From assembly GCA_018303885.1 (NCBI GenBank), contig JAGVXG010000006.1:1-51846 (forward strand): a DNA stretch of 51,846 nt, read 5' to 3'. A program made the position numbers and the translations under genes. The notes beneath the pieces are model-generated. The model was not told where the DNA came from, made no database searches, and saw only the letters and a program-made list of their open reading frames with translations. This DNA is from Candidatus Pacearchaeota archaeon (GTDB lineage: Archaea; Nanobdellota; Nanobdellia; Pacearchaeales; GW2011-AR1). How positions within the stretch are numbered: the first letter of the stretch is position 1; the number at the start of each line of letters is the position of its first letter. Positions 11,933-51,846 of the stretch are shown here, one piece after another.

Positions 11933-12577
11933 TTAATTCTTCTTGCGGACTTTCTTAAGCTTTTTCGGCTTCCACTCAACAATCTTTCCAGCTTCTATTT
12001 CTGGCTTGTCTGCGAGCCTTAAACCGGAAATCTGGCTTCTGGTTAATATGGGAAAGTGTTTGACTTTTGCAAGATAATCATCGACATACCATAAATCATC
12101 TTCAGAGATAATCCAGTTAAGATAATCAAATCTCGCCAGATTGACAGGCATCGAGTAACTTCTTAGCGTTTTTCTGCCAGAATCGTCGAAATATTCATGA
12201 AAAAAACTCATGACTAATTCTCTTATACTTTTGTAAATAGGTTCTCTGTAACGAAGAACAGCATGATTTGTCTTGCTTATTGCCCCCCAGTATCTGCCAC
12301 GTTTAAACACGCAGATAACATGATCAAAATCTTTTTTAACAGAAGTTAAATCAACAACAAGCGGCTTTTCCCCATGAATTCTTAAAGCAACAGCAGCCAA
12401 TAAAGCGCCTTCAATGCAATGCGCTTTCCATTCCCTTAAAACCATTCTTGGAGAAATGCACGTGTCTTTTTCATCTTCCTCAAAGTTTATTGGGATCTTA
12501 TTAAGAAAATCCTGAATTTTTTTCGGGGTGTTTAATGCCTTCAGGATTTTCATCTCCTTTTCATTTAAGCCGAACAT
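11933..12577 (-). CDS. Transglutaminase-like fold protein
   Basis: The 214-residue protein contains WKAHCIEGALLAAVALR (Cys54 at the start of a helix) followed by VVDLTSVKKDFDHVICVF (His86 on a strand). This is the Cys-His arrangement of the transglutaminase/protease-like superfamily; the third catalytic residue is not clear. The tail is very basic (KPKKLKKVRKKN). No signal peptide, so it is cytoplasmic. Archaeal homologues are uncharacterised as far as I know. It lies directly upstream of ileS and may be cotranscribed. The substrate is unknown. Confidence 0.65.
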   Translation of the reverse strand: MFGLNEKEMKILKALNTPKKIQDFLNKIPINFEEDEKDTCISPRMVLREWKAHCIEGALLAAVALRIHGEKPLVVDLTSVKKDFDHVICVFKRGRYWGAISKTNHAVLRYREPIYKSIRELVMSFFHEYFDDSGRKTLRSYSMPVNLARFDYLNWIISEDDLWYVDDYLAKVKHFPILTRSQISGLRLADKPEIEAGKIVEWKPKKLKKVRKKN

Positions 12578-12672
12578 GATTTGATTAGGGATTTTTAATA
12601 CTTAAATGTTAGGAAAATACCGCAAAAGTTCAATTAAATTAGCTGTTGGGATTAAAAACTTTTTATTGTCTA

Positions 12673-13367
12673 TTAGCTAAAACCTTCCAAAACTTCCTTC
12701 TCAAGAAAATGCAGCTCGCTCGGAATTATTATGCAGAAAGGCGCTTTAGCTTTTTGTTTTTTAAGCTTGCTAATATCACCATAATGAATATGAGAATCTT
12801 TAAGCCCAAGCCGTTCGCATATAACTACCTTCTCTAACTTAACATTCTTATTTCGGCAATCTTTTTCTAACTTTCTTAAGGCGTCATTAAAACTCATCCC
12901 AATATCAACAAGAATTAATGTATGCGCTTTTATACTTAAATTTGATTTAACAACATCGATATAACTATCTGCATCAAGATTTGGCAGACTCGTTGTTTTT
13001 CCAAATTTGTAAAGCTGAAGTCCTGTTTCTCCAATAGCATTTAAAATAGAAGCGTTATGAAGAACTTTGACTTTTATCTTTCTTTTTCTAGCTTCTTGAA
13101 TCAGAGAGATATGTGTTGTCGCTGCCAGCGGGCTTCCATAAACAAGCAAAACAATATCCTTGCTTTTTGCCTCGCCAAGAACCTTAAAGCTTTCAACAAA
13201 ATTTCTGTCAACAGGAACAACTTCTTGGTTAATCTCTTTTTCAAGTTCAGAAAATTTGTAAGGAAATTCAACAGTATAATTTTCAATGTAAACCTTGTCA
13301 GCCTTTTCTATTGCCTTACCCAGCTAAAACCTTCGTGATTCAAACCAAGTCCGATTAAGTGTAACAT
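12673..13367 (-). pseudogene. dph5: Diphthine synthase, interrupted by a frameshift
   Basis: Dph5 is the methyltransferase of diphthamide synthesis on EF-2. The N-terminus reads MLHLIGLGLNHEGFS from the ATG at 13367, the family's usual start. Around 13320 the frame shifts: the rest (GKAIEKADKVYIENYTVEF, then VYGSPLAATTHISL, then GETGLQLYKFGKTTSLP) continues in another frame to the stop at 12673. The start frame hits TAG four codons later, and the second frame has TAG just upstream of the junction. Comparison with the family suggests about 7 nt lost (1 nt minimum). Everything else is well conserved, so it may be a sequencing error, a recent mutation or programmed frameshifting. A restart at the TTG near 13149 would lack the methyltransferase N-terminus. 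Confidence 0.8.
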
Positions 13368-13391
13368 AAAAATAAGAGAAAAAACCAGTTT

Positions 13392-13610
13392 TTAAGCGTG
13401 TTGATTATCAGAGAATTTTTCTTCTATAATTCTTGATATCGGCTTCCCTGTTTTTTCTTTTAATTTCTTAAGCTTGTTTATAGTCTCGACTGAGAGAGTT
13501 ATGTCTATTCTCTTTCTTTGAAAAGGCAGCTCTCTAGTTTTATCATAATTTTCCAAGATTTCAAATACTTCTTTATATTTCTTCAAAATTATATCTTTAT
13601 TTAATTGCAT
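13392..13610 (-). CDS. Ribbon-helix-helix antitoxin of the Fic module
   Basis: A 72-residue protein. The C-terminal half, RIDITLSVETINKLKKLKEK then TGKPISRIIEEKF, is a ribbon-helix-helix DNA-binding unit. The N-terminal helix region (residues 1-30) is free to contact a toxin. Its start overlaps the end of the Fic gene by 14 nt, a typical toxin-antitoxin linkage, although here the toxin gene comes first. Confidence 0.75.
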   Translation of the reverse strand: MQLNKDIILKKYKEVFEILENYDKTRELPFQRKRIDITLSVETINKLKKLKEKTGKPISRIIEEKFSDNQHA

Positions 13611-13932
13611 TTTTTAGCCTCCATTCAATTTTTCTTATATCCTGAATATTGTTTTTTGCGATTGAAGTAATATGATGTACAAGCAAATCACGATCCACGC
13701 CTTTTTTGAATTCGTGAGCAAAACTTAATGATACATAAGCTGCTGTTCTTTTATTCCCATCTGAAAAAGGATGATCAACCAAAATTGATCTTAATAGATA
13801 AGCTAATTTTTTATAGTTTCCGAGTTTTTTATTGCCTAATTTATCTAAAGCATAGTCCAAGCTAGAATCACTTCTTAAATTTCCTCCAAATCCTTTGTTT
13901 ATTCTCAAAATTTCTTCCTTACCAATTTTCAT
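13597..13932 (-). CDS. Fic/Doc-family toxin
   Basis: The Fic motif HPFSDGNKRTAA is complete in its His, Asp, Gly-Asn and Lys-Arg positions. The form HPFxDGNKR is closer to Doc-type (death on curing) proteins than to long AMP-transferases with GNGR. Expected activity is phosphorylation or nucleotidylation of a translation factor; Doc acts on EF-Tu. The start MKIGKEEI (13932) is preferred over the upstream ATG at 13953, because a TTTATAAA box at 13956-13963 is correctly spaced for a leaderless start at 13932. That leaves 111 residues, normal for Doc-like proteins. Confidence 0.9.
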   Translation of the reverse strand: MKIGKEEILRINKGFGGNLRSDSSLDYALDKLGNKKLGNYKKLAYLLRSILVDHPFSDGNKRTAAYVSLSFAHEFKKGVDRDLLVHHITSIAKNNIQDIRKIEWRLKNAIK

Positions 13933-13955
13933 ACACATAAATATTGGTGACATAG

Positions 13956-13963
13956 TTTATAAA
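13956..13963. promoter_or_regulatory. Symmetric TATA box between divergent Fic and DUF1761 genes
   Basis: TTTATAAA is its own reverse complement. It lies about 27 nt from the Fic start at 13932 on the minus strand. On the plus strand it is about 27 nt from a predicted transcription start near 13987, just ahead of the Shine-Dalgarno GGAGGTGG (13991-13998) of the 14002 gene. One box may serve both directions. Confidence 0.55.
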
Positions 13964-14001
13964 TCTTTTGCTCTTAAACTTAAAATCAAAGGAGGTGGAA
14001 A

Positions 14002-14415
14002 ATGGTTTTAGGAGAAAGTGTAAATTTGTGGGCTGTTTTGGTCTCGGCAATTGCAGCCATGATTGTAGGCTCTTTGTGGTATGGTCCATTATTCGGTAAA
14101 GCCTGGATGAAGTTATCTGGAATGACGCCACAGAAGATGAAGTCAATGAAAACAAGTGTTACTCGGTCATATCTGCTCGCATTTATTGGAGCCCTTGTTT
14201 TGGCATATGTCCTTGGTGTGATTATTGGATGGGCAAACGTAACAACACTATGGTCAGGAGTTGTTGTAGGATTTTGCGTTTGGCTCGGATTTAGCGCAAC
14301 ACATGCCTTAGGAGCAGTTATCTGGGAAGGAAAACCTTGGACAGCGTTCTGGCTTAATGGTCTTGGTGGATTAGTTAGCTTGGTTATCCAAGGCGCAATA
14401 CTTGCCGCCTGGTAG
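14002..14415 (+). CDS. DUF1761 family membrane protein
   Basis: A 137-residue protein with four predicted helices (about residues 8-28, 55-78, 82-102 and 115-136). The family signature is visible: NLWAVLVSAIAAMIVGSLWY followed by GPLFGKAW. DUF1761 proteins are small membrane proteins of unknown function in bacteria and archaea. A strong Shine-Dalgarno at 13991 and a leader make this one of the few leadered genes in the window. Confidence 0.85.
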   Translation: MVLGESVNLWAVLVSAIAAMIVGSLWYGPLFGKAWMKLSGMTPQKMKSMKTSVTRSYLLAFIGALVLAYVLGVIIGWANVTTLWSGVVVGFCVWLGFSATHALGAVIWEGKPWTAFWLNGLGGLVSLVIQGAILAAW

Positions 14416-14430
14416 CTCTTTTAATTTATT

Positions 14431-14700
14431 CTAATTTTTTCTTTTAGAGTTCTTTTTTATTCTTGGTTTTGATAAGCTCCTGCTTGTAACAATTGCAATA
14501 AAAGCAAAAGTAAAAAGCAAAGCATCATTTCTAAAAATCAAGCTTAAGATAACCCCTAAAAAACTCGCTAGTATTATTAATTTAAACCAAAATTGTCCCT
14601 GCTTTAGTTCTTCTTTTGTTTGCTTTGCAAGATAGTTGCCAATGGGAAAGCCTAAAATTAGTATAACGATTCCAATTAATAGATTAATTAAGTGGGCCAT
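14431..14700 (-). CDS. Small membrane protein with basic tail
   Basis: An 89-residue protein with three hydrophobic segments (about residues 5-22, 40-56 and 61-75) and a strongly basic C-terminus (KPRIKKNSKRKN). The motif LGFPIGNYLAKQTKEEL between helices 1 and 2 recurs in small archaeal membrane proteins, but I cannot name a family. It is convergent with the DUF1761 gene. Confidence 0.65.
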   Translation of the reverse strand: MAHLINLLIGIVILILGFPIGNYLAKQTKEELKQGQFWFKLIILASFLGVILSLIFRNDALLFTFAFIAIVTSRSLSKPRIKKNSKRKN

Positions 14701-14737
14701 AAAAACCAGAGGAAAAAGATATTAATAAATCATTTGA

Positions 14738-15007
14738 TTAAACTTCACGAAACACGCACTCTAGTTCGCCTTCAAGATCAATAGGTTTGCCATCATTTTT
14801 TTCCTTAAGCAATTTAAAAACTTTTTCTCCTATGTCATCATATTTCTCGTCCGGAAGATCACTTTTACTTAAGATGAGCTTCATATCCTTAAATCTAGCT
14901 TGTTTATTTAGTATATCTTCTTTTACCATTTCGTAAAGATTTAGACTAACACAAGGAAGAGCGTAGTATTGACCACCAGACTCATAGACTAAAATCCTCC
15001 ACGGCAT
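14738..15007 (-). CDS. Hypothetical 89-residue protein
   Basis: A soluble, acidic mixed alpha/beta protein beginning MPWRILVYESGGQYYALP. No motif recognised. An AT-rich box (TTTAAATTTATA region near 15030-15040) lies about 27 nt upstream of the ATG, so it probably has its own leaderless promoter. It is divergent from dtdA. Confidence 0.6.
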   Translation of the reverse strand: MPWRILVYESGGQYYALPCVSLNLYEMVKEDILNKQARFKDMKLILSKSDLPDEKYDDIGEKVFKLLKEKNDGKPIDLEGELECVFREV

Positions 15008-15112
15008 AAAACAAATTACCCTCAGTTTTATTTAAATTTATATGTGTTATTCTAATATAGGGCTGTTTTTATTAATCATAAACTTTAAAATCCAGCCTGT
15101 TTATCTAAAATC

Positions 15113-15907
15113 ATGGCATATGAGAAATTTTTGATAGCGGCTTCGAAACTCGATAAAGCAGGAATCAACATAACAACCCAGCTAAGCCAGTTTGGAGATT
15201 TTAAGTTTTATCTTGTTGACGGAGAGATAATCCATACAGAAAGTCTAGACCTTGAAAAAATAAATTCTTTTGATTTCGTAGTCTTTGCATCTAAGCATAA
15301 GTCTGAAAGTCGCGAGAAGACACTTTCTGTCCACGCTCCTGGAAATTGGCGCTCTGCCGAGTTTGGCGGTCAACCAGGACACGTATGTAAAAGCTCTGCA
15401 TTCTTCATGAAACAGATGTTTGAAAAAATGCATGAAAACATGCTGCAATACAATTTGAAAGAATACAAATTGACTCTCGAAGCGACGCATCATGGTCCCT
15501 TAATTGACAAGCCATGTGTTTTTGTTGAAATCGGCTCTACAGAAAATGAATGGACAGACAAGCGTATTGGTTTCATTGTCGCAAAGGCAATTTCCGAAAC
15601 CCTGAAAAACTTTAAGCCAAATCCTTACAATGAAATAGCTGTTGCAATCGGCGGTCCGCACTACTGCCCAAACTTCAATAAAATTCAACTGCGTTCGAAT
15701 GTTGCGATTTCTCATGTTATTCCCCAATACGCCTTTCCCTTTACAGAAGAAATGATAACCGAAGCCGTGCATAAAACAGAAGAAGAACTCGACTTTGTAC
15801 TTCTAGATTGGAAAGGGCTTGGAAATGCAGAACAACGCCAGAAAATTATCGAAATTCTCAACAAGCTTTATATAAATTACAAAAAAACAAGCGATGTTGG
15901 TAAGTGA
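15113..15907 (+). CDS. dtdA: D-aminoacyl-tRNA deacylase, archaeal type
   Basis: DtdA (GEK1 family) hydrolyses D-amino acids from mischarged tRNA and is the archaeal/plant replacement for bacterial Dtd. The 264-residue protein shows the family blocks: FASKHKSESREKTLSVHAPG (about residues 61-80), LEATHHGPLIDKP (about 123-135), and IGGPHYCPNFNK with HVIPQYAF near residue 200. The conserved His residues of HAPG, THHG and GPHY are candidate metal ligands. TTTAAAA at 15084-15090 is about 26 nt from the ATG, consistent with a leaderless start. Assignment is secure. Confidence 0.95.
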   Translation: MAYEKFLIAASKLDKAGINITTQLSQFGDFKFYLVDGEIIHTESLDLEKINSFDFVVFASKHKSESREKTLSVHAPGNWRSAEFGGQPGHVCKSSAFFMKQMFEKMHENMLQYNLKEYKLTLEATHHGPLIDKPCVFVEIGSTENEWTDKRIGFIVAKAISETLKNFKPNPYNEIAVAIGGPHYCPNFNKIQLRSNVAISHVIPQYAFPFTEEMITEAVHKTEEELDFVLLDWKGLGNAEQRQKIIEILNKLYINYKKTSDVGK

Positions 15908-45401: not shown

Positions 45402-45767
45402 CTAACTTGAAAATCTTTGTAAAAATTTAAATTTACCATTACCCGTGCCTATTGGAATCTGATTCTGCGCAGGCCTTTGTGGCATTTCTTTTACTCTATG
45501 GCCATTACCATTGCCATTAATTATGCGCCCGATTTCAAATTGAACAACGCCATCAACCTTATCAGATAATTCAATTGTTCTTTTTTGATCATTATATCTT
45601 ATAACTCCATCATTGTCAAAAATATAGTAACTATTTCCATTTACAGAAATTTTACGGAGTGCTAAATCTCCAGCCCATTCAATTATTTCATCATACACTC
45701 TAGCATCTTGAACTTTAACCATTTTAGTGTATGTTATTTCTTTTTGTGCCATTGTTTGCGTCGTCAT
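45402..45767 (-). CDS. Orphan protein between rpoB and rpoA (second)
   Basis: A 121-residue protein with beta-like segments (KISVNGNSYYIFDNDGVIRY, then TIELSDKVDGVVQFEIGRII) and an Asn-Gly-rich tail (NGNGNGHRV, QIPIGTGNGKF). No family. It begins 1 nt downstream of the stop of the other orphan (45769), so the two form a pair inserted between the polymerase genes. Confidence 0.6.
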   Translation of the reverse strand: MTTQTMAQKEITYTKMVKVQDARVYDEIIEWAGDLALRKISVNGNSYYIFDNDGVIRYNDQKRTIELSDKVDGVVQFEIGRIINGNGNGHRVKEMPQRPAQNQIPIGTGNGKFKFLQRFSS

Positions 45768-45768
45768 T

Positions 45769-46116
45769 TTATTCTTGATGTTCTATTTTCTTAGGTTTAA
45801 TTTCAGCCGAAATTTCTTTTAAATCGTCATATATTCCTTCTGGGCATTCAAGAACCTTTACTTCTATCCCCCCAAAAGGATTTCTAGATGTTTTTATTTC
45901 TCCCCCATTATTTAACCCATAAATTATTTCACCATTTTCATGCTTAACACTACCTACAACTTCAGGTCCTAATCTAGTTAAATAAGCGACAATAGTGGGA
46001 TATGTTGTCTCTGCATTAACATACCAGCTTCTATCTAAGCGTCTTCCTTCTAAAGAAGGCGTTCCTGCATACATTATCTGCGTACCATCATCTTGTTTAA
46101 TAAATTGTATGGCCAT
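45769..46116 (-). CDS. Orphan protein between rpoB and rpoA (first)
   Basis: A 115-residue protein (GTQIMYAGTPSLEGRRLDRS, then NPFGGIEVKVLECPEGIYDD). Mixed beta and helical, no family recognised, tail KPKKIEHQE. Its ATG is 2 nt from the rpoB stop, so it should be cotranslated with the polymerase message. The next orphan follows immediately. Confidence 0.6.
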   Translation of the reverse strand: MAIQFIKQDDGTQIMYAGTPSLEGRRLDRSWYVNAETTYPTIVAYLTRLGPEVVGSVKHENGEIIYGLNNGGEIKTSRNPFGGIEVKVLECPEGIYDDLKEISAEIKPKKIEHQE

Positions 46117-46118
46117 TT

Positions 46119-49100
46119 TTATTCGTACTTGTTTTTTAATCCGAAAGTTGTGTGAATATGTAACCCTTGAAGCTCTTCCATAAGAAGTTTGAATGCATAA
46201 GAGATTTCAACAGATTCAACTTCTTCGCTTCCACAAACAGAGCAGACTTTTTTATTTCTGATATTGTCTTCTATAGCAACAGAGCCGCATTTACTGCATA
46301 TAGGAAGAACGACTTTATCAGAATCATATCTTTCTTTTAACAACAGTGCTGCTCCATGCGCAACTAATGCCTGCTGTTCCATTTCTCCCAAACGCAAAGC
46401 GCCACCACGAGAACGCCCTTCCACTGGCTGTCTTGTTAACAAAGCAACTTTTCCAGAAGCTCTCCCATGAAGTTTGTTTGCAACCATATATTTAAGCTTC
46501 AAGTAATAAAGATTTCCAACGAATATTTTTGCGCTTATTTTTTTTCCAGTAACGCCGGAGCGCATTGTTTCTTTGCCGTCGTAGCTGAATCCAAGACGTT
46601 CTAATTGCGTTTCAAGTTCTTCCTTGCCAACGCCTGAAAACGCGGTTCCGTCGACAATTTCTCCGCTTAAACATCCTACTTTTCCAGCAAGCAACTCAAG
46701 CAAATAGCCAACAGTCATTCTGCTTGGAAGTCCGTGTGGATTAAACATGATATCAGGTCTTATTCCTTTTGATGTGAAAGGAACATCTTCTTCTTCGAGA
46801 AGCAAACCCAAAACTCCTTTTTGTCCGTGAGAAGTTGCAAATTTATCTCCTGGCTCAGGAATTCTTTGATCCCGGACTTTTACCTGAACAATTTTATTTC
46901 CGTCTTCGTCTTCTGTAATAAAAACAGCTTCGACAGTTCCTTTCTCTTCCTGTTTCATTGTCACGCTTGATTCTTTTTTTGTTCTTACAGAAATCTCCCT
47001 TGCTTCAGATAAGAATTTTGGAGGAGACATTTTTCCGATTAAAACCTCGCCTTCATTGACTTCTGCTTCTGGATACGCTATACCGTCAGTTTCCAAAAAA
47101 CGATAGCTAGCTTCTGTCTTATACCCAGATGCATCTTTTTCAGGAACAGCTATCTCGTCTTTCAAGCCTCCTGCATAATTCATTTCAATTGCGCTGTAAG
47201 GCCTGAAATAAAAACTTCTGCCTACGCCACGGTCAACACTTCCTTTGTTGAGAACAAGAGCATCTTCCATGTTGTATCCTTCATAAGGCATTATTGCAAC
47301 AACAAGATTTTGTCCAGCAGAATAGGCATTTAAAGTGTCATAAACAAAACTTCTTACAATTGGCTTTTGCGGATACTGCAAAACAGAAACGTCTGTATCG
47401 AGTCTTGCAAGATAATTTGCAGCATACAACCCAAGAGATTGTTTTTGCGTCTTGCTTCCACGATTTAGTCTCGAACTTTGGTCGTGGTTGCCATAAGGAA
47501 CTAAGCTCGTAATTACGCCAAACAAATCCATATGGTCGACTTCAAGATGTGTATGTTCTGGCGTAATGTCTTCTTCATTTAAGACAACCAGCGCACTTTC
47601 CTCTTCCGAGGCGTCTAGGTATTCTATTATGCCTTCTTTGATTAAATCATTCCACATCATTTCTCCTTGTTCTATCTTTACCAAATGTTCCTCTTTGAGT
47701 TTTGAAGAGCTGTTCTCAATAATTATCAATGGCCTCAAGACTCTTCCTGGTTCTGTTGAAATCAAGACGTTTTGGAAATAAGGATCATATCTTATGTTCA
47801 TTTGTATCGGCAACGCGCCCTCCCGTCTCTTCTTCCTTATTTTTTCAGTAAATTCCCGTGGGTTTTTAACAGAGCCTATGAAAATTCCATTGAAGAAAAC
47901 TTCTGTATCTTCTGGACCTTCTTTTACAAGCCCTTCTGATTCAAGGGTTTTTAAAAAATCTTCTTGATTAAGCTCAACCCTTGTTGAAACTTTTGCCATA
48001 ATCGCCAAGTTCTTTCTCAGCCCGATTTCAGTTCCTTCAGGAGTTTCAATAGGGCAGAATCTTCCATAATGCGTCGGATGTAAAGTCCTCGCGGCGAAAT
48101 TTTCCTGATCGCTTGGAAGCATAGAAGAAACACGCTGAAGCTGGCTTATAGTTGCAAGATAATTTGTTTTGTCCATGTTCTGTGTTATGCCAGACCTTTC
48201 TCCTGTCCAGCTTCCTGTTGCGATTGCAGATTCAACCCTATGAGAGAACAATGTTGACTTTGCAATTATTTTTATTGAAAAGAATTTTCTTCTTTTAGTT
48301 GCTTTTTGTAAAGAATATTGGATATCTCTTATTAAAATTCCAAGATTAACTCTGAATAACGTTGCCAGTAAGTCTCCAGAAAGTCTGACACGTTTGTTTG
48401 CATAATGGTCCTTGTCTGTTCTTAGGCTCGGGTTCTCTTTTGCAATTAAAAACTGTTTTATCAGCTTGCAGAGAGTTACTGCCTTCTTCATCCTGTCTTC
48501 TTTTTTCTGTCCGATGTGCGGAAACAAGTAGGAGTCTATTCTCTGCCTTACTCTGTCGAGAATTTCTTTTTTTGTTCCCTGAAGGTTTGCCTTCTCAGAA
48601 ATATACATCATCGCATCTTCCTTAGTTGCCACGTTGACAAATTCATAAAGATTCACAATGACAGAATCTGTTTCTTTTCCTAAATATTTCTGAATGTCAG
48701 ACTCTCTTGTCATCCCAAGCGCTTTGAGAATAATAACTGCAGGAATATCTTTTAGTTTGCTGAACGAAACTTCAAAAATTCCTTCTTTACTTTCTGATAT
48801 TAACACAGGAATTCTGTATGTTCCTTTTAATGAAAATAGTTTTAAAGAAAGTCCTCGTCTTGAATCTGATTCTATGAAGGGCTGGTTTTCTGCAAGATCT
48901 TCTGCCATTACCATAACTCTTTCGTTTCCTCTTATGATGAAATATCCTCCTGGGTCAAGAGGATCATGATAACTTTTTATTAGCTCATCACGTGACATGC
49001 CATTGCTGTTGCACGCCTTGCTTTTCACCATTATTGGAATTTTTCCTATTTCAACAATTTCTGAGTCGACTTGGTCGTCTTTCTTGACTGTTATTTCTAA

Positions 49101-49373
49101 GGTCACTGGCGCAGCATAAGTCAGATTTCTCATTCTTGCTTCTGAAGGAGTTATCAAAGAAGAACTTCCGTCTGCTTCAATGACTCTTGGCTTTCCGACT
49201 GCAATTTTTCCAAGGGTGATTTCAAAATCTTCTTTATCTATTGTTTCAGAAATCTCATTTACGATTTCCTGCATCCTTTTTTCCAGAAAATTATTGAAAG
49301 AAATAACATTAGATTCTACTAGGGAGTGCTCTTTAAGATATTTTTTCACGATTAGATGTTTTCTGTTTTCCAT
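46119..49373 (-). CDS. rpoB: RNA polymerase subunit B, unsplit
   Basis: The second-largest polymerase subunit, 1084 residues in one gene; some euryarchaea split it into B' and B''. Hallmarks: NMEDALVLNKGSVDRGVGRS, GDKFATSHGQKGVLGLLLE, MTVGYLLELLAGKVG and RGGALRLGEMEQQALVAHGA. A zinc site ICSKCG...CSVCG is near the C-terminus. A hairpin lies just upstream of the ATG. Assignment is secure. Confidence 0.97.
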   Translation of the reverse strand: MENRKHLIVKKYLKEHSLVESNVISFNNFLEKRMQEIVNEISETIDKEDFEITLGKIAVGKPRVIEADGSSSLITPSEARMRNLTYAAPVTLEITVKKDDQVDSEIVEIGKIPIMVKSKACNSNGMSRDELIKSYHDPLDPGGYFIIRGNERVMVMAEDLAENQPFIESDSRRGLSLKLFSLKGTYRIPVLISESKEGIFEVSFSKLKDIPAVIILKALGMTRESDIQKYLGKETDSVIVNLYEFVNVATKEDAMMYISEKANLQGTKKEILDRVRQRIDSYLFPHIGQKKEDRMKKAVTLCKLIKQFLIAKENPSLRTDKDHYANKRVRLSGDLLATLFRVNLGILIRDIQYSLQKATKRRKFFSIKIIAKSTLFSHRVESAIATGSWTGERSGITQNMDKTNYLATISQLQRVSSMLPSDQENFAARTLHPTHYGRFCPIETPEGTEIGLRKNLAIMAKVSTRVELNQEDFLKTLESEGLVKEGPEDTEVFFNGIFIGSVKNPREFTEKIRKKRREGALPIQMNIRYDPYFQNVLISTEPGRVLRPLIIIENSSSKLKEEHLVKIEQGEMMWNDLIKEGIIEYLDASEEESALVVLNEEDITPEHTHLEVDHMDLFGVITSLVPYGNHDQSSRLNRGSKTQKQSLGLYAANYLARLDTDVSVLQYPQKPIVRSFVYDTLNAYSAGQNLVVAIMPYEGYNMEDALVLNKGSVDRGVGRSFYFRPYSAIEMNYAGGLKDEIAVPEKDASGYKTEASYRFLETDGIAYPEAEVNEGEVLIGKMSPPKFLSEAREISVRTKKESSVTMKQEEKGTVEAVFITEDEDGNKIVQVKVRDQRIPEPGDKFATSHGQKGVLGLLLEEEDVPFTSKGIRPDIMFNPHGLPSRMTVGYLLELLAGKVGCLSGEIVDGTAFSGVGKEELETQLERLGFSYDGKETMRSGVTGKKISAKIFVGNLYYLKLKYMVANKLHGRASGKVALLTRQPVEGRSRGGALRLGEMEQQALVAHGAALLLKERYDSDKVVLPICSKCGSVAIEDNIRNKKVCSVCGSEEVESVEISYAFKLLMEELQGLHIHTTFGLKNKYE

Positions 49374-49376
49374 TGT

Positions 49377-49396
49377 GTTTTTTGTTTACAAAAAAC
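49377..49396 (-). promoter_or_regulatory. Hairpin immediately upstream of rpoB
   Basis: GTTTTTTG-TTTA-CAAAAAAC is a perfect 8-bp stem ending 3 nt before the rpoB start codon. A hairpin so close to the start may affect ribosome access. Confidence 0.45.
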
Positions 49397-49545
49397 GCAG
49401 CTAAAGTGAGCCTGCGAACTTTTGTCTTTTGGTTTTAATTTACTCGCTATATTCATTCGAATTAATTTTGGTTACTAATATTCAAAACTTTTACATTAAA
49501 ATTTTGATTTATCCTTGCGAGTTTAATCTCTTAGTTGCAGGAGAT

Positions 49546-49568
49546 GCAGAACCCGCGGGTGGTTCTGC
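49546..49568 (-). promoter_or_regulatory. GC-rich hairpin between rpoH and rpoB
   Basis: GCAGAACC-cgcgggt-GGTTCTGC forms an 8-bp stem in the 247-nt rpoH-rpoB gap. No gene is seen in that gap. It could be a processing or termination/readthrough signal separating rpoH from rpoB. Confidence 0.45.
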
Positions 49569-49620
49569 GAGCAAGCTATTTTCATTAATTATATTATTAC
49601 TTGATATTATTTTTCCCATT

Positions 49621-49827
49621 TCATACAACAACCCTATAATAAAAGACTGTGTCTTCTCCGTCCTTTCTTTCAATTTTGATTATGTCCCCAACTTCAGAAC
49701 CTTCAGGTAAAGCAGGGTCATCAGAGAAAACCTTTGGAAGCTGGGCACGAGAAATATTAAATTCCTTAAGTAGTTCCTCAGCCTCTTTCTCTTTGAGTTT
49801 TATGTGTTTTGGTTGTAGAATATGCAT
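49621..49827 (-). CDS. rpoH: RNA polymerase subunit H
   Basis: The archaeal counterpart of the C-terminal domain of eukaryotic Rpb5. The 68-residue product has the family pattern: HILQPKHIKLKEKEAEELLK, FNISRAQLPKVFSDDPAL and KIERKDGEDTVFYYRVVV. It opens the classic rpo block. AT boxes near 49884 and 49965 give two possible starts with leaders. Assignment is secure. Confidence 0.95.
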   Translation of the reverse strand: MHILQPKHIKLKEKEAEELLKEFNISRAQLPKVFSDDPALPEGSEVGDIIKIERKDGEDTVFYYRVVV

Positions 49828-50004: not shown

Positions 50005-50895
50005 TTAGTTTCTAGAATAATCATCATCACATCTAAAGGGCTTTAGTCCGGATTCTCCGGATTCTTGTTTTTCGCTAAACTCTTCAACTGCTTGTTTAAT
50101 CATTCCTTCCAATCCACCCATAACCCCTGTAATAAGATCTCTCCCAAGAATACATTTAACAGTTTCCTGCATCATTGAAGAGGCCATATTTCCTAAAACC
50201 TGAAACGATGTATCTTTAACCTGAGACATAAATTCCAACGAGTTTAGTGCACGATAAAGCAGTCTAATTTGATTAGTAACATTCTGATAATCTCCAAAAT
50301 TTCCCGCAACAGAGAAAACATCAGAATCTTTTACTCCTCTATCAAGAAGATAATCTAATTCTAAAATATCTGGAAACGCCCCATTTTCCAAAAGTCTGAT
50401 TTTTAGATACCATTCTTCTCTACCTGCTTTGTCTATCAAATAATTGTAAACACCTACCCCCTCTTTTCTCAATCTTTCTGGCACACTATCTAAAAACTCA
50501 TCTGGAACGATCCCATTTGCAAACAGAATATAATCTCTTCCATTTTGAAGTTTGCCATCTTTATAATGTTTTTTTAAGTGTTCAATGATTTCTTTGTCTC
50601 CTTCTGCTATGCCTTTAATTTCTGGTACAGGCAGTAGTCTTAAAAAATAAGTCTCTTTAATCTCTTCTTCTGTAGGTTTACTTTTTCCAAGCGAACCCAA
50701 GTCTATTCCTTTTGCACTCCTTCTCACAAGATCAATAGCTTCTTCTCTTTCTGGAATTCTTGATTTTGAAATTGTTGCTATCTGCGTGGCTTTTGCCTTT
50801 CCCCCAACTAATGGTCTTTTTAATGGCTTTGCTCTTCTGCCAAAAACTTCGTTAGGAACAATCGCTCTATATGTTGGTAATTCTATTTCTGTCAT
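50005..50895 (-). CDS. Unrecognised protein, third gene of the PafA/Dop-like operon
   Basis: A 296-residue protein, no family recognised. The N-terminus is basic (EVFGRRAKPLKRPLVGGKAK). The middle is acidic and mixed alpha/beta (EETYFLRLLPVPEIKGIAEG-like segments, then LQNGRDYILFANGIVPDEFL). The last 90 residues form long helices (MASSMMQETVKCILGRDLIT) before a polar tail. No signal peptide. The ATG is 1 nt after the stop of the preceding gene. It may serve as a substrate adaptor or chaperone of the PafA-like protein, but that is inference from linkage only. Confidence 0.6.
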   Translation of the reverse strand: MTEIELPTYRAIVPNEVFGRRAKPLKRPLVGGKAKATQIATISKSRIPEREEAIDLVRRSAKGIDLGSLGKSKPTEEEIKETYFLRLLPVPEIKGIAEGDKEIIEHLKKHYKDGKLQNGRDYILFANGIVPDEFLDSVPERLRKEGVGVYNYLIDKAGREEWYLKIRLLENGAFPDILELDYLLDRGVKDSDVFSVAGNFGDYQNVTNQIRLLYRALNSLEFMSQVKDTSFQVLGNMASSMMQETVKCILGRDLITGVMGGLEGMIKQAVEEFSEKQESGESGLKPFRCDDDYSRN

Positions 50896-50896
50896 G

Positions 50897-51310
50897 TTAT
50901 AATTCTCCTCTCAAAACAGCCATGGCTGCCCTGGGATTTTTCTCAAAAACTTGAAAAGATAAGCTTACCATTTCAAATTGCCTTCTTAATTGCTCTGGAA
51001 CTTCTATATTTAAATTTATCCCTGTTTCTTTTTCGAATTGAGTTGTTACTTGCTGATTTCTTAAATCTGAATAAGAAGCAACTGTCAAAAGGACATTATA
51101 ACCAGGAGCTGTTACTATTCCATCTTTTTGTTGAGATACCATTAGTAAATAAGGTTCTGTCGCTTCTTTGAATACAGCATATTTAACAGTGCTTCCTAGT
51201 CCAACCAGAACATTTGTCAATGGCTCTGAACATTTTCTTACAGCTTCTTCTAAAGAATCATCATATCTTCCAAGTTTTACTAATGTTCGCGGTGTTTTAA
51301 TTGAAACCAT
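50897..51310 (-). CDS. Unrecognised protein, second gene of the PafA/Dop-like operon
   Basis: The start MVSIKTPRTLVKLGRYDDSL (51310, 137 residues) is preferred: it is 1 nt after the stop of the PafA-like gene (TAAAATG), whereas the longer frame overlaps that gene. Segments LLMVSQQKDGIVTAPGYNVL and TGINLNIEVPEQLRRQFEMV suggest an alpha/beta fold. The C-terminus RAAMAVLRGEL is not the Gly-Gly-Glu/Gln ending of Pup. No family recognised. Tight linkage suggests it works with the PafA-like enzyme. Confidence 0.6.
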   Translation of the reverse strand: MVSIKTPRTLVKLGRYDDSLEEAVRKCSEPLTNVLVGLGSTVKYAVFKEATEPYLLMVSQQKDGIVTAPGYNVLLTVASYSDLRNQQVTTQFEKETGINLNIEVPEQLRRQFEMVSLSFQVFEKNPRAAMAVLRGEL

Positions 51311-51311
51311 T

Positions 51312-51846
51312 TTATAATCTATCTTCCAACCCCAAATAATTATCGAAAGGATCGCCCAATCCAATTTTTCTATTTATAATACCTGTACCTTGAATACAAC
51401 TTGAACAGTTACAACGACCTTCTTCTCTCCTTTTTTCTAACTCTTTTCTTCTTTTTTCATCTGGTGTATCTGAATAATATAGATAATCCCATCCAATTTG
51501 TTTTTCTGGTATATCATCTCTAGAAACAATTGCTCCTCTAAATCTCGCCCTTGTATCTTCTGGGGGATGTTCAACAGCGTGTTCTATTTGTTCATCAGTT
51601 AACATTCTATCAACCAATCCTCTTGACTGAAGCATATAAAATAATCCAGTCTGTCTATTAACTTCATGATATTGTAAGTCAATGTTTCTAACAGCAGTAT
51701 CATTTAAGCCCTTTCCAGTTCTAGCCATATAAGAATCTATCAATTTTTTCTTAATTACCCAATCAAGCCATCTATCCAAGCTCATTGGATTTCCCTGAAG
51801 AGAATCTAAAACAAACTTCCATCTATTGAGAATATCATCAGTCATT
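51312..51846 (-). CDS. PafA/Dop-family protein (Pup ligase/deamidase-like), C-terminal part
   Basis: The gene runs off the right edge; the ATG at 51845 is probably an internal Met. The visible 177 residues match the C-terminal part of Pup ligase PafA and Pup deamidase/depupylase Dop, glutamine-synthetase-fold enzymes. Matching segments are RWKFVLDSLQGNPMSLDR with LDWVIKKKLIDSYMARTG, then IDLQYHEVNRQTGLFYML, LTDEQIEHAVEHPPEDTRA and RFRGAIV, and finally a WDYL near the usual WDS. A long extra tail follows, with a Cys cluster (CNCSSC) and many charged residues. The ATP and catalytic N-terminal part lies outside the window, so activity cannot be judged and PafA cannot be told from Dop. Confidence 0.85.
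   Translation of the reverse strand, partial: MTDDILNRWKFVLDSLQGNPMSLDRWLDWVIKKKLIDSYMARTGKGLNDTAVRNIDLQYHEVNRQTGLFYMLQSRGLVDRMLTDEQIEHAVEHPPEDTRARFRGAIVSRDDIPEKQIGWDYLYYSDTPDEKRRKELEKRREEGRCNCSSCIQGTGIINRKIGLGDPFDNYLGLEDRL

Follow-up and report, generated by a model that had tools for sequence, protein, structure and literature searches.

A probable Pup conjugation operon in the chromosome of a Pacearchaeota archaeon

Gene content and the join between two contigs

The window analyzed is the whole of contig C1 (51,846 nt), which belongs to a 720-kb genome in 17 contigs, 84.8% complete. At its right edge, an ORF on the reverse strand runs open to the contig end and corresponds to the C-terminal third of Pup_ligase. 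Its residues 2-122 align with positions 320-440 of the 441 of the Pfam profile PF03136 (E = 6e-36), and at 124.8 bits (cut-off 25) the match is not due to chance. A sequence-only reading of the window had taken this gene to be PafA/Dop-like; the profile search agrees, placing the fragment in this family. Within its own genome, the fragment has a single further match, where contig C6 ends. C6 closes on 76 bases that are identical to those opening the reversed window; this overlap sits within a 101-nt exact repeat common to dop and pafA, which explains the assembly break. Because the other contigs have no match, C6-C1 is the sole available join. C6 holds mpa, dop, pup, and then the 5′ two thirds of pafA; joined to C1, the order is mpa-dop-pup-pafA-P1-P2 (Table 1). 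The mpa/dop, dop/pup, and pup/pafA junctions have overlapping start and stop codons. The pafA/P1 (TTA TAA A ATG) and P1/P2 (TTA TAA C ATG) junctions both show the 1-nt gaps first read from the window alone. That reading had also put the two partners directly upstream of rpoH-rpoB: the order is right, but "directly" was loose, as rpoH begins 177 nt past the end of P2.

Table 1. Features of the joined locus and its archaeal flank (positions are those of the window unless C6 is named)
Feature	Position	Strand	Remark
Mpa/ARC-type AAA ATPase, 503 aa	L005 (C6) 12233-13744	+	TIGR03689
Dop homolog	L005 (C6) 13734-14981, plus tail ORF 14974-15420	+	PF03136
Pup, 62 aa, ends EYKQTGGQ	L005 (C6) 15407-15595	+	between dop and pafA
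pafA, 5′ two thirds	L005 (C6) 15595 to contig end	+	continues onto C1
Contig overlap, 76 nt identical (C6 end = locus start on C1)	51771-51846		exact sequence match
pafA, 3′ part (Pup ligase homolog)	51312-51845	-	codons 312-488 of joined 488-aa protein; PF03136
P1, 137-aa accessory protein	50897-51310	-	starts 1 nt past pafA stop; scattered homologs
P2, 296-aa accessory protein	50005-50895	-	starts 1 nt past P1 stop
Archaeal flank, outside the system: rpoH 49621-49827, rpoB 46119-49373	46119-49827	-	collinear with G031

The joined PafA matches PF03136 over the full length of the profile with 375 bits (cut-off 25). It matches Dop 4b0r (2e-70) and PafA 4b0t (7e-57) in the PDB. The N-part of the Dop homolog scores 322 bits on PF03136 (cut-off 25). 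The sequence-only reading had made its assignment hang on GS-fold ATP/Mg motifs upstream of the contig edge, and the pafA part on C6 has them (GSEQEYG, YVDCGHPEY, SQRA, NTKDDP, RLHVINGDAN). In an alignment with Nitrospirota members, the ATP/Mg and catalytic-Asp motifs (GxExE, YxDxxHPEY) are conserved in both PafA and Dop. No relative of PafA was found in a viral collection.

The assignment of the two paralogs to subfamilies is less straightforward. The N-part of Dop has 275 bits on the Dop model TIGR03688 (equivalog cut-off 492, not reached) versus 201 on the PafA model TIGR03686. PafA has 289 bits on TIGR03686, below the equivalog cut-off of 551, and scores slightly higher on TIGR03688 (316 bits). 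For this reason the genes are named by position and relative scores, together with their relatives and the absence of the long insert. The Dop-loop comprises 40-65 residues before strand β2 (PMC8599861), and the insert at this place is long in the Dop homolog and much shorter in PafA; the loop's sequence shows no clear conservation with that of actinobacteria. Identity between the two products is 42% in the N-part and 27% in the tail, but reaches 98% over a stretch of 116 residues in the C-domain. The 98% tract looks like a recent homogenization (gene conversion) between the paralogs and points to recent recombination between two copies that have both been kept; an assembly effect appears less likely.

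Beyond the operon, the flank is that of an archaeal chromosome. RpoH (Rpb5_C, E = 1e-17), RpoB, and RpoA′ are of archaeal type and encoded on the same strand as pafA-P1-P2, and among PDB chains, those of archaeal-type RNA polymerases give RpoB its top score (996 bits). Between rpoB and rpoA′ lie two small genes on the reverse strand (45402-45767 and 45769-46116; 121 and 115 aa) with no match in Pfam or in G031, a congeneric genome assembled as one contig.

Modifier, ATPase, and accessory proteins

Pup proteins are recognized by a length of 50-90 residues, a C-terminal G[E/Q], and a gene beside one of the PafA family (PMC2588565). The small protein encoded on C6 has 62 residues, ends in GGQ, and has a PafA-family gene as neighbor. 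It has no match to Pup models, including PF05639, in Pfam, in NCBIfam, or in the genome search. When its last 32 residues are aligned with a Nitrospirota Pup, however, the score is reached by none of 2,000 shuffles; against a profile built from four bacterial Pups the protein stays at background, so that the C-terminal alignment is the one test that rose above it. Judged by its sequence, the modifier is Pup-like. The proposal that a modifier ending in GGE or GGQ might lie beyond the contig edge is thus borne out, whereas the one that it might be of a new type is not. P1 and P2 had also been put forward as the modifier, and this idea is abandoned: a Pup-GGQ exists on C6, and neither of them has such a C-terminus.

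The best family of the ATPase is pup_AAA (TIGR03689), with 355 bits versus 185 for the next family, although below the equivalog cut-off of 505. It has an OB_N domain (PF17758, 28.8 bits, over the cut-off), Walker motifs, an aromatic pore loop, and a coiled coil of just ~30 residues. The other AAA matches in the genome are two modules of one 834-aa frame of CDC48 size. In actinobacteria, a C-terminal GxYx docks Mpa on the 20S proteasome (PMC6466877). This motif is absent here, the protein ending in NRSYNRGKHGH, and together with the short coiled coil its absence would argue against standard docking. The operon contains no prcBA; the archaeal 20S of the genome is encoded away from it, by alpha and beta genes on contig C16.

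P1 has 137 residues counted from the junction ATG, and not the 155 of the ORF with a TTG start. Neither P1 nor six of its homologs have a Pfam match, and the homologs are short genes scattered among relatives without a detected Pup ligase. P2 has homologs (33-40%) in three genomes, G063, G151, and G015, and Pup ligase was not found in these either. In G015, the P2 homolog lies directly before an ATPase scoring 407 bits on the pup_AAA model, and the same stretch (L112:1119-3597, reverse strand) has several small unknown genes. This adjacency links P2 with the motor and is the sole functional clue; P2 probably serves the Mpa ATPase. Several ORFs of G015 end in Gln, which is taken to result from the overlap of stop and start codons and not to mark modifiers. 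A "ubiquitin binding" (UBM) match of P2 was likewise attributed to chance, as it misses the cut-off (E = 0.034) and does not recur in the homologs. Single-sequence structure models of P1 and P2 (mean pLDDT 43.6 and 33.7) are too poor for a fold search.

Distribution and relation to known tagging systems

Pup_ligase is present in five of 181 genomes of the family and in five of 371 genomes drawn from the phylum. The Pup locus is absent from the ten other genomes of the genus. A second locus was found in G263, a genome from a different family within this archaeal class. Like the C6-C1 operon, it has mpa, dop, Pup, and pafA on an archaeal contig, in this case one with an archaeal Cbf5 (426 bits). 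It differs in its order, mpa-dop-pup-prcB with pafA on the opposite strand, in its bacterial-type prcB, and in its enzymes, which are ~29-35% identical to those described here (N-part). Its Pup ends in EKSGQ, and prcA likely follows prcB. Nine other genomes of that family have no Pup_ligase. Such a patchy occurrence points to transfer; most of the N-part tree lacks resolution, and the donor lineage is therefore left unnamed.

Other arrangements exist around members of the ligase family. G002 encodes a 61-aa protein ending in NSGE (L014:14551-14736, reverse strand) directly upstream of a PafA-like gene, with the contig ending nearby. Its C-terminus aligns weakly with bacterial Pup (score reached by 44 of 2,000 shuffles), and the genome gave no Mpa-type match; it is possibly a Pup without need of deamidation. 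In G181, a 97-aa ORF ending in GSAE (L038:6388-6681, reverse strand) overlaps the end of a Pup_ligase homolog, has no Pfam match, and is possibly a modifier of its own kind. Homologs in G162 (L016:9497-10849) and G161 (L017:8963-10321) lack an adjacent Pup and lie in the same gene neighborhood: an FAD oxidoreductase-like gene, the homolog, seryl-tRNA synthetase, and an antiporter-like gene. In an uncultured bacterium (L049:7823-9809, forward strand), a 53-aa protein ending in AGGE precedes a PafA-like protein that contains a hydrophobic insertion, similar to the membrane type described in Plesiocystis and Rhodopirellula (Iyer et al. 2008, PMC2588565).

Among named relatives, PafA is closest to those of Nitrospirota (36-42% identity). 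Their locus (Ca. Manganitrophus, Troglogloeales), mpa-dop-pup-prcB-prcA-pafA, has the same families in the same relative order as here, with Pup between dop and pafA in both. It differs by the presence of prcBA and by a Pup-GGE, whereas the archaeal operon lacks prcBA, has a Pup-GGQ, and adds P1-P2. The Nitrospirota Mpa ends in TGHYL and has a long coiled coil, in contrast with the short coil and missing GxYx of the archaeal one. The actinobacterial system (Mycobacterium tuberculosis, Corynebacterium glutamicum) shares with the archaeal operon the combination of Pup-GGQ, Dop, and PafA. The latter departs from it in having an archaeal 20S instead, a Pup below the model cut-offs, two extra genes, and a host from another domain of life. 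C. glutamicum itself lacks 20S genes and uses Pup nondegradatively (PMC12288473).

Sporadic occurrences of Pup outside actinobacteria have been listed in bacteria only (Iyer et al. 2008, PMC2588565), and a 2021 review regards pupylation as of exclusively bacterial origin (PMC8223512). A full-text search limited to open-licence papers, preprints excluded, found no report of archaeal pupylation. The described archaeal tagging is that by SAMP-type modifiers. SAMP/Urm1 systems also tag lysines and possibly deliver to the proteasome, but they use a β-grasp modifier and E1-like chemistry, with no homology to Pup or to the GS-fold ligase (PMC3511204 and general knowledge).

State and meaning of the operon

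Several observations count for a Pup conjugation operon: PafA and Dop homologs with GS-fold motifs, an Mpa-type ATPase, a Pup-GGQ, tight gene junctions, a gene order like that of Nitrospirota, collinearity with G031, the 98% identical tract shared by dop and pafA, and the 20S proteasome of the genome. Against it count the broken dop frame, a join made over a contig break, a Pup unseen by the models, an Mpa without GxYx, and enzymes below the equivalog cut-offs. Taken together, these make it highly probable that the archaeal chromosome carries such an operon, and acquisition by this archaeon, DPANN-like in its genome size and gene content, would be the best explanation of its presence. In the cycle that one can predict from the gene content, the Dop homolog, if functional despite the break in the assembly, would convert the last residue of Pup-GGQ from Gln to Glu by deamidation, and PafA would use ATP to link the side chain of this Glu to lysines on its targets. 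Next, the Mpa/ARC-type ATPase would grip Pup and unfold the tagged protein, which would either be passed on to the archaeon's own 20S proteasome or simply be remodeled, as in C. glutamicum. Dop would also take the tag off, and P1 and P2 would be accessory, P2 working with the ATPase. That the operon is active today seems moderately probable on these grounds; that it feeds the 20S proteasome is a tentative and somewhat doubtful proposal. The most elaborate version, in which working Pup tagging in archaea of this class feeds the archaeal 20S via an Mpa without docking motif and P1 and P2 are new adaptors, so that a bacterial tag and its motor would have been grafted onto an archaeal protease, is unlikely.

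The operon could instead be an acquired one in decay, in which recombination with pafA has damaged dop and Pup is neither activated nor conjugated any more. Relative to pafA, dop lacks 26 nt just past the 101-nt repeat, after codon 408, and its frame is lost in the assembly. This matters because Pup-GGQ must be deamidated before ligation (PMC3511204) and should therefore need Dop; the absence of the locus from the other genomes of the genus also fits decay. However, the deletion adjoins a repeat left unresolved in the assembly and hence may be an artifact, the remaining genes are all open and tightly coupled, and the catalytic motifs are conserved in both enzymes. We consider decay rather unlikely.

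A role of the PF03136 enzymes as amide ligases acting on a metabolite or peptide, and not on Pup, is suggested by the homologs of G108, G161, G162, and G325, which have neither Pup nor Mpa beside them and indicate that the family is not always tied to Pup in these archaea. In the present genome, the ligase is accompanied by the Dop homolog, Pup, and the Pup-type ATPase, arranged as in bacteria, which makes such a role very improbable.

The genes of the window are collinear with 459-494 kb of G031, and those of C6 up to thioredoxin with 61-78 kb, so that both contigs belong to an archaeal chromosome and contamination of the bin could be discarded. Thus, despite the bacterial affinities of PafA and the patchiness of the locus, a mis-binned bacterial fragment, or one chimerically joined to archaeal DNA, is barely credible: besides these long collinear stretches, the base composition agrees, the 3′ part of pafA, P1, and P2 share a contig with rpoH-rpoB-rpoA′, and the Pup locus of G263, likewise archaeal, shares its contig with archaeal Cbf5. 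G031 itself lacks the Pup locus, and the two flanks of the operon are far apart in it, which implies a rearrangement between the species at this place or one that the join conceals.

The occurrence of Pup loci in two archaeal families indicates that the Pup system has crossed between domains, in this case into a genome that already had a 20S proteasome. Whether Pup and Mpa can plug into the archaeal proteasome, and what P1 and P2 add, are testable questions.
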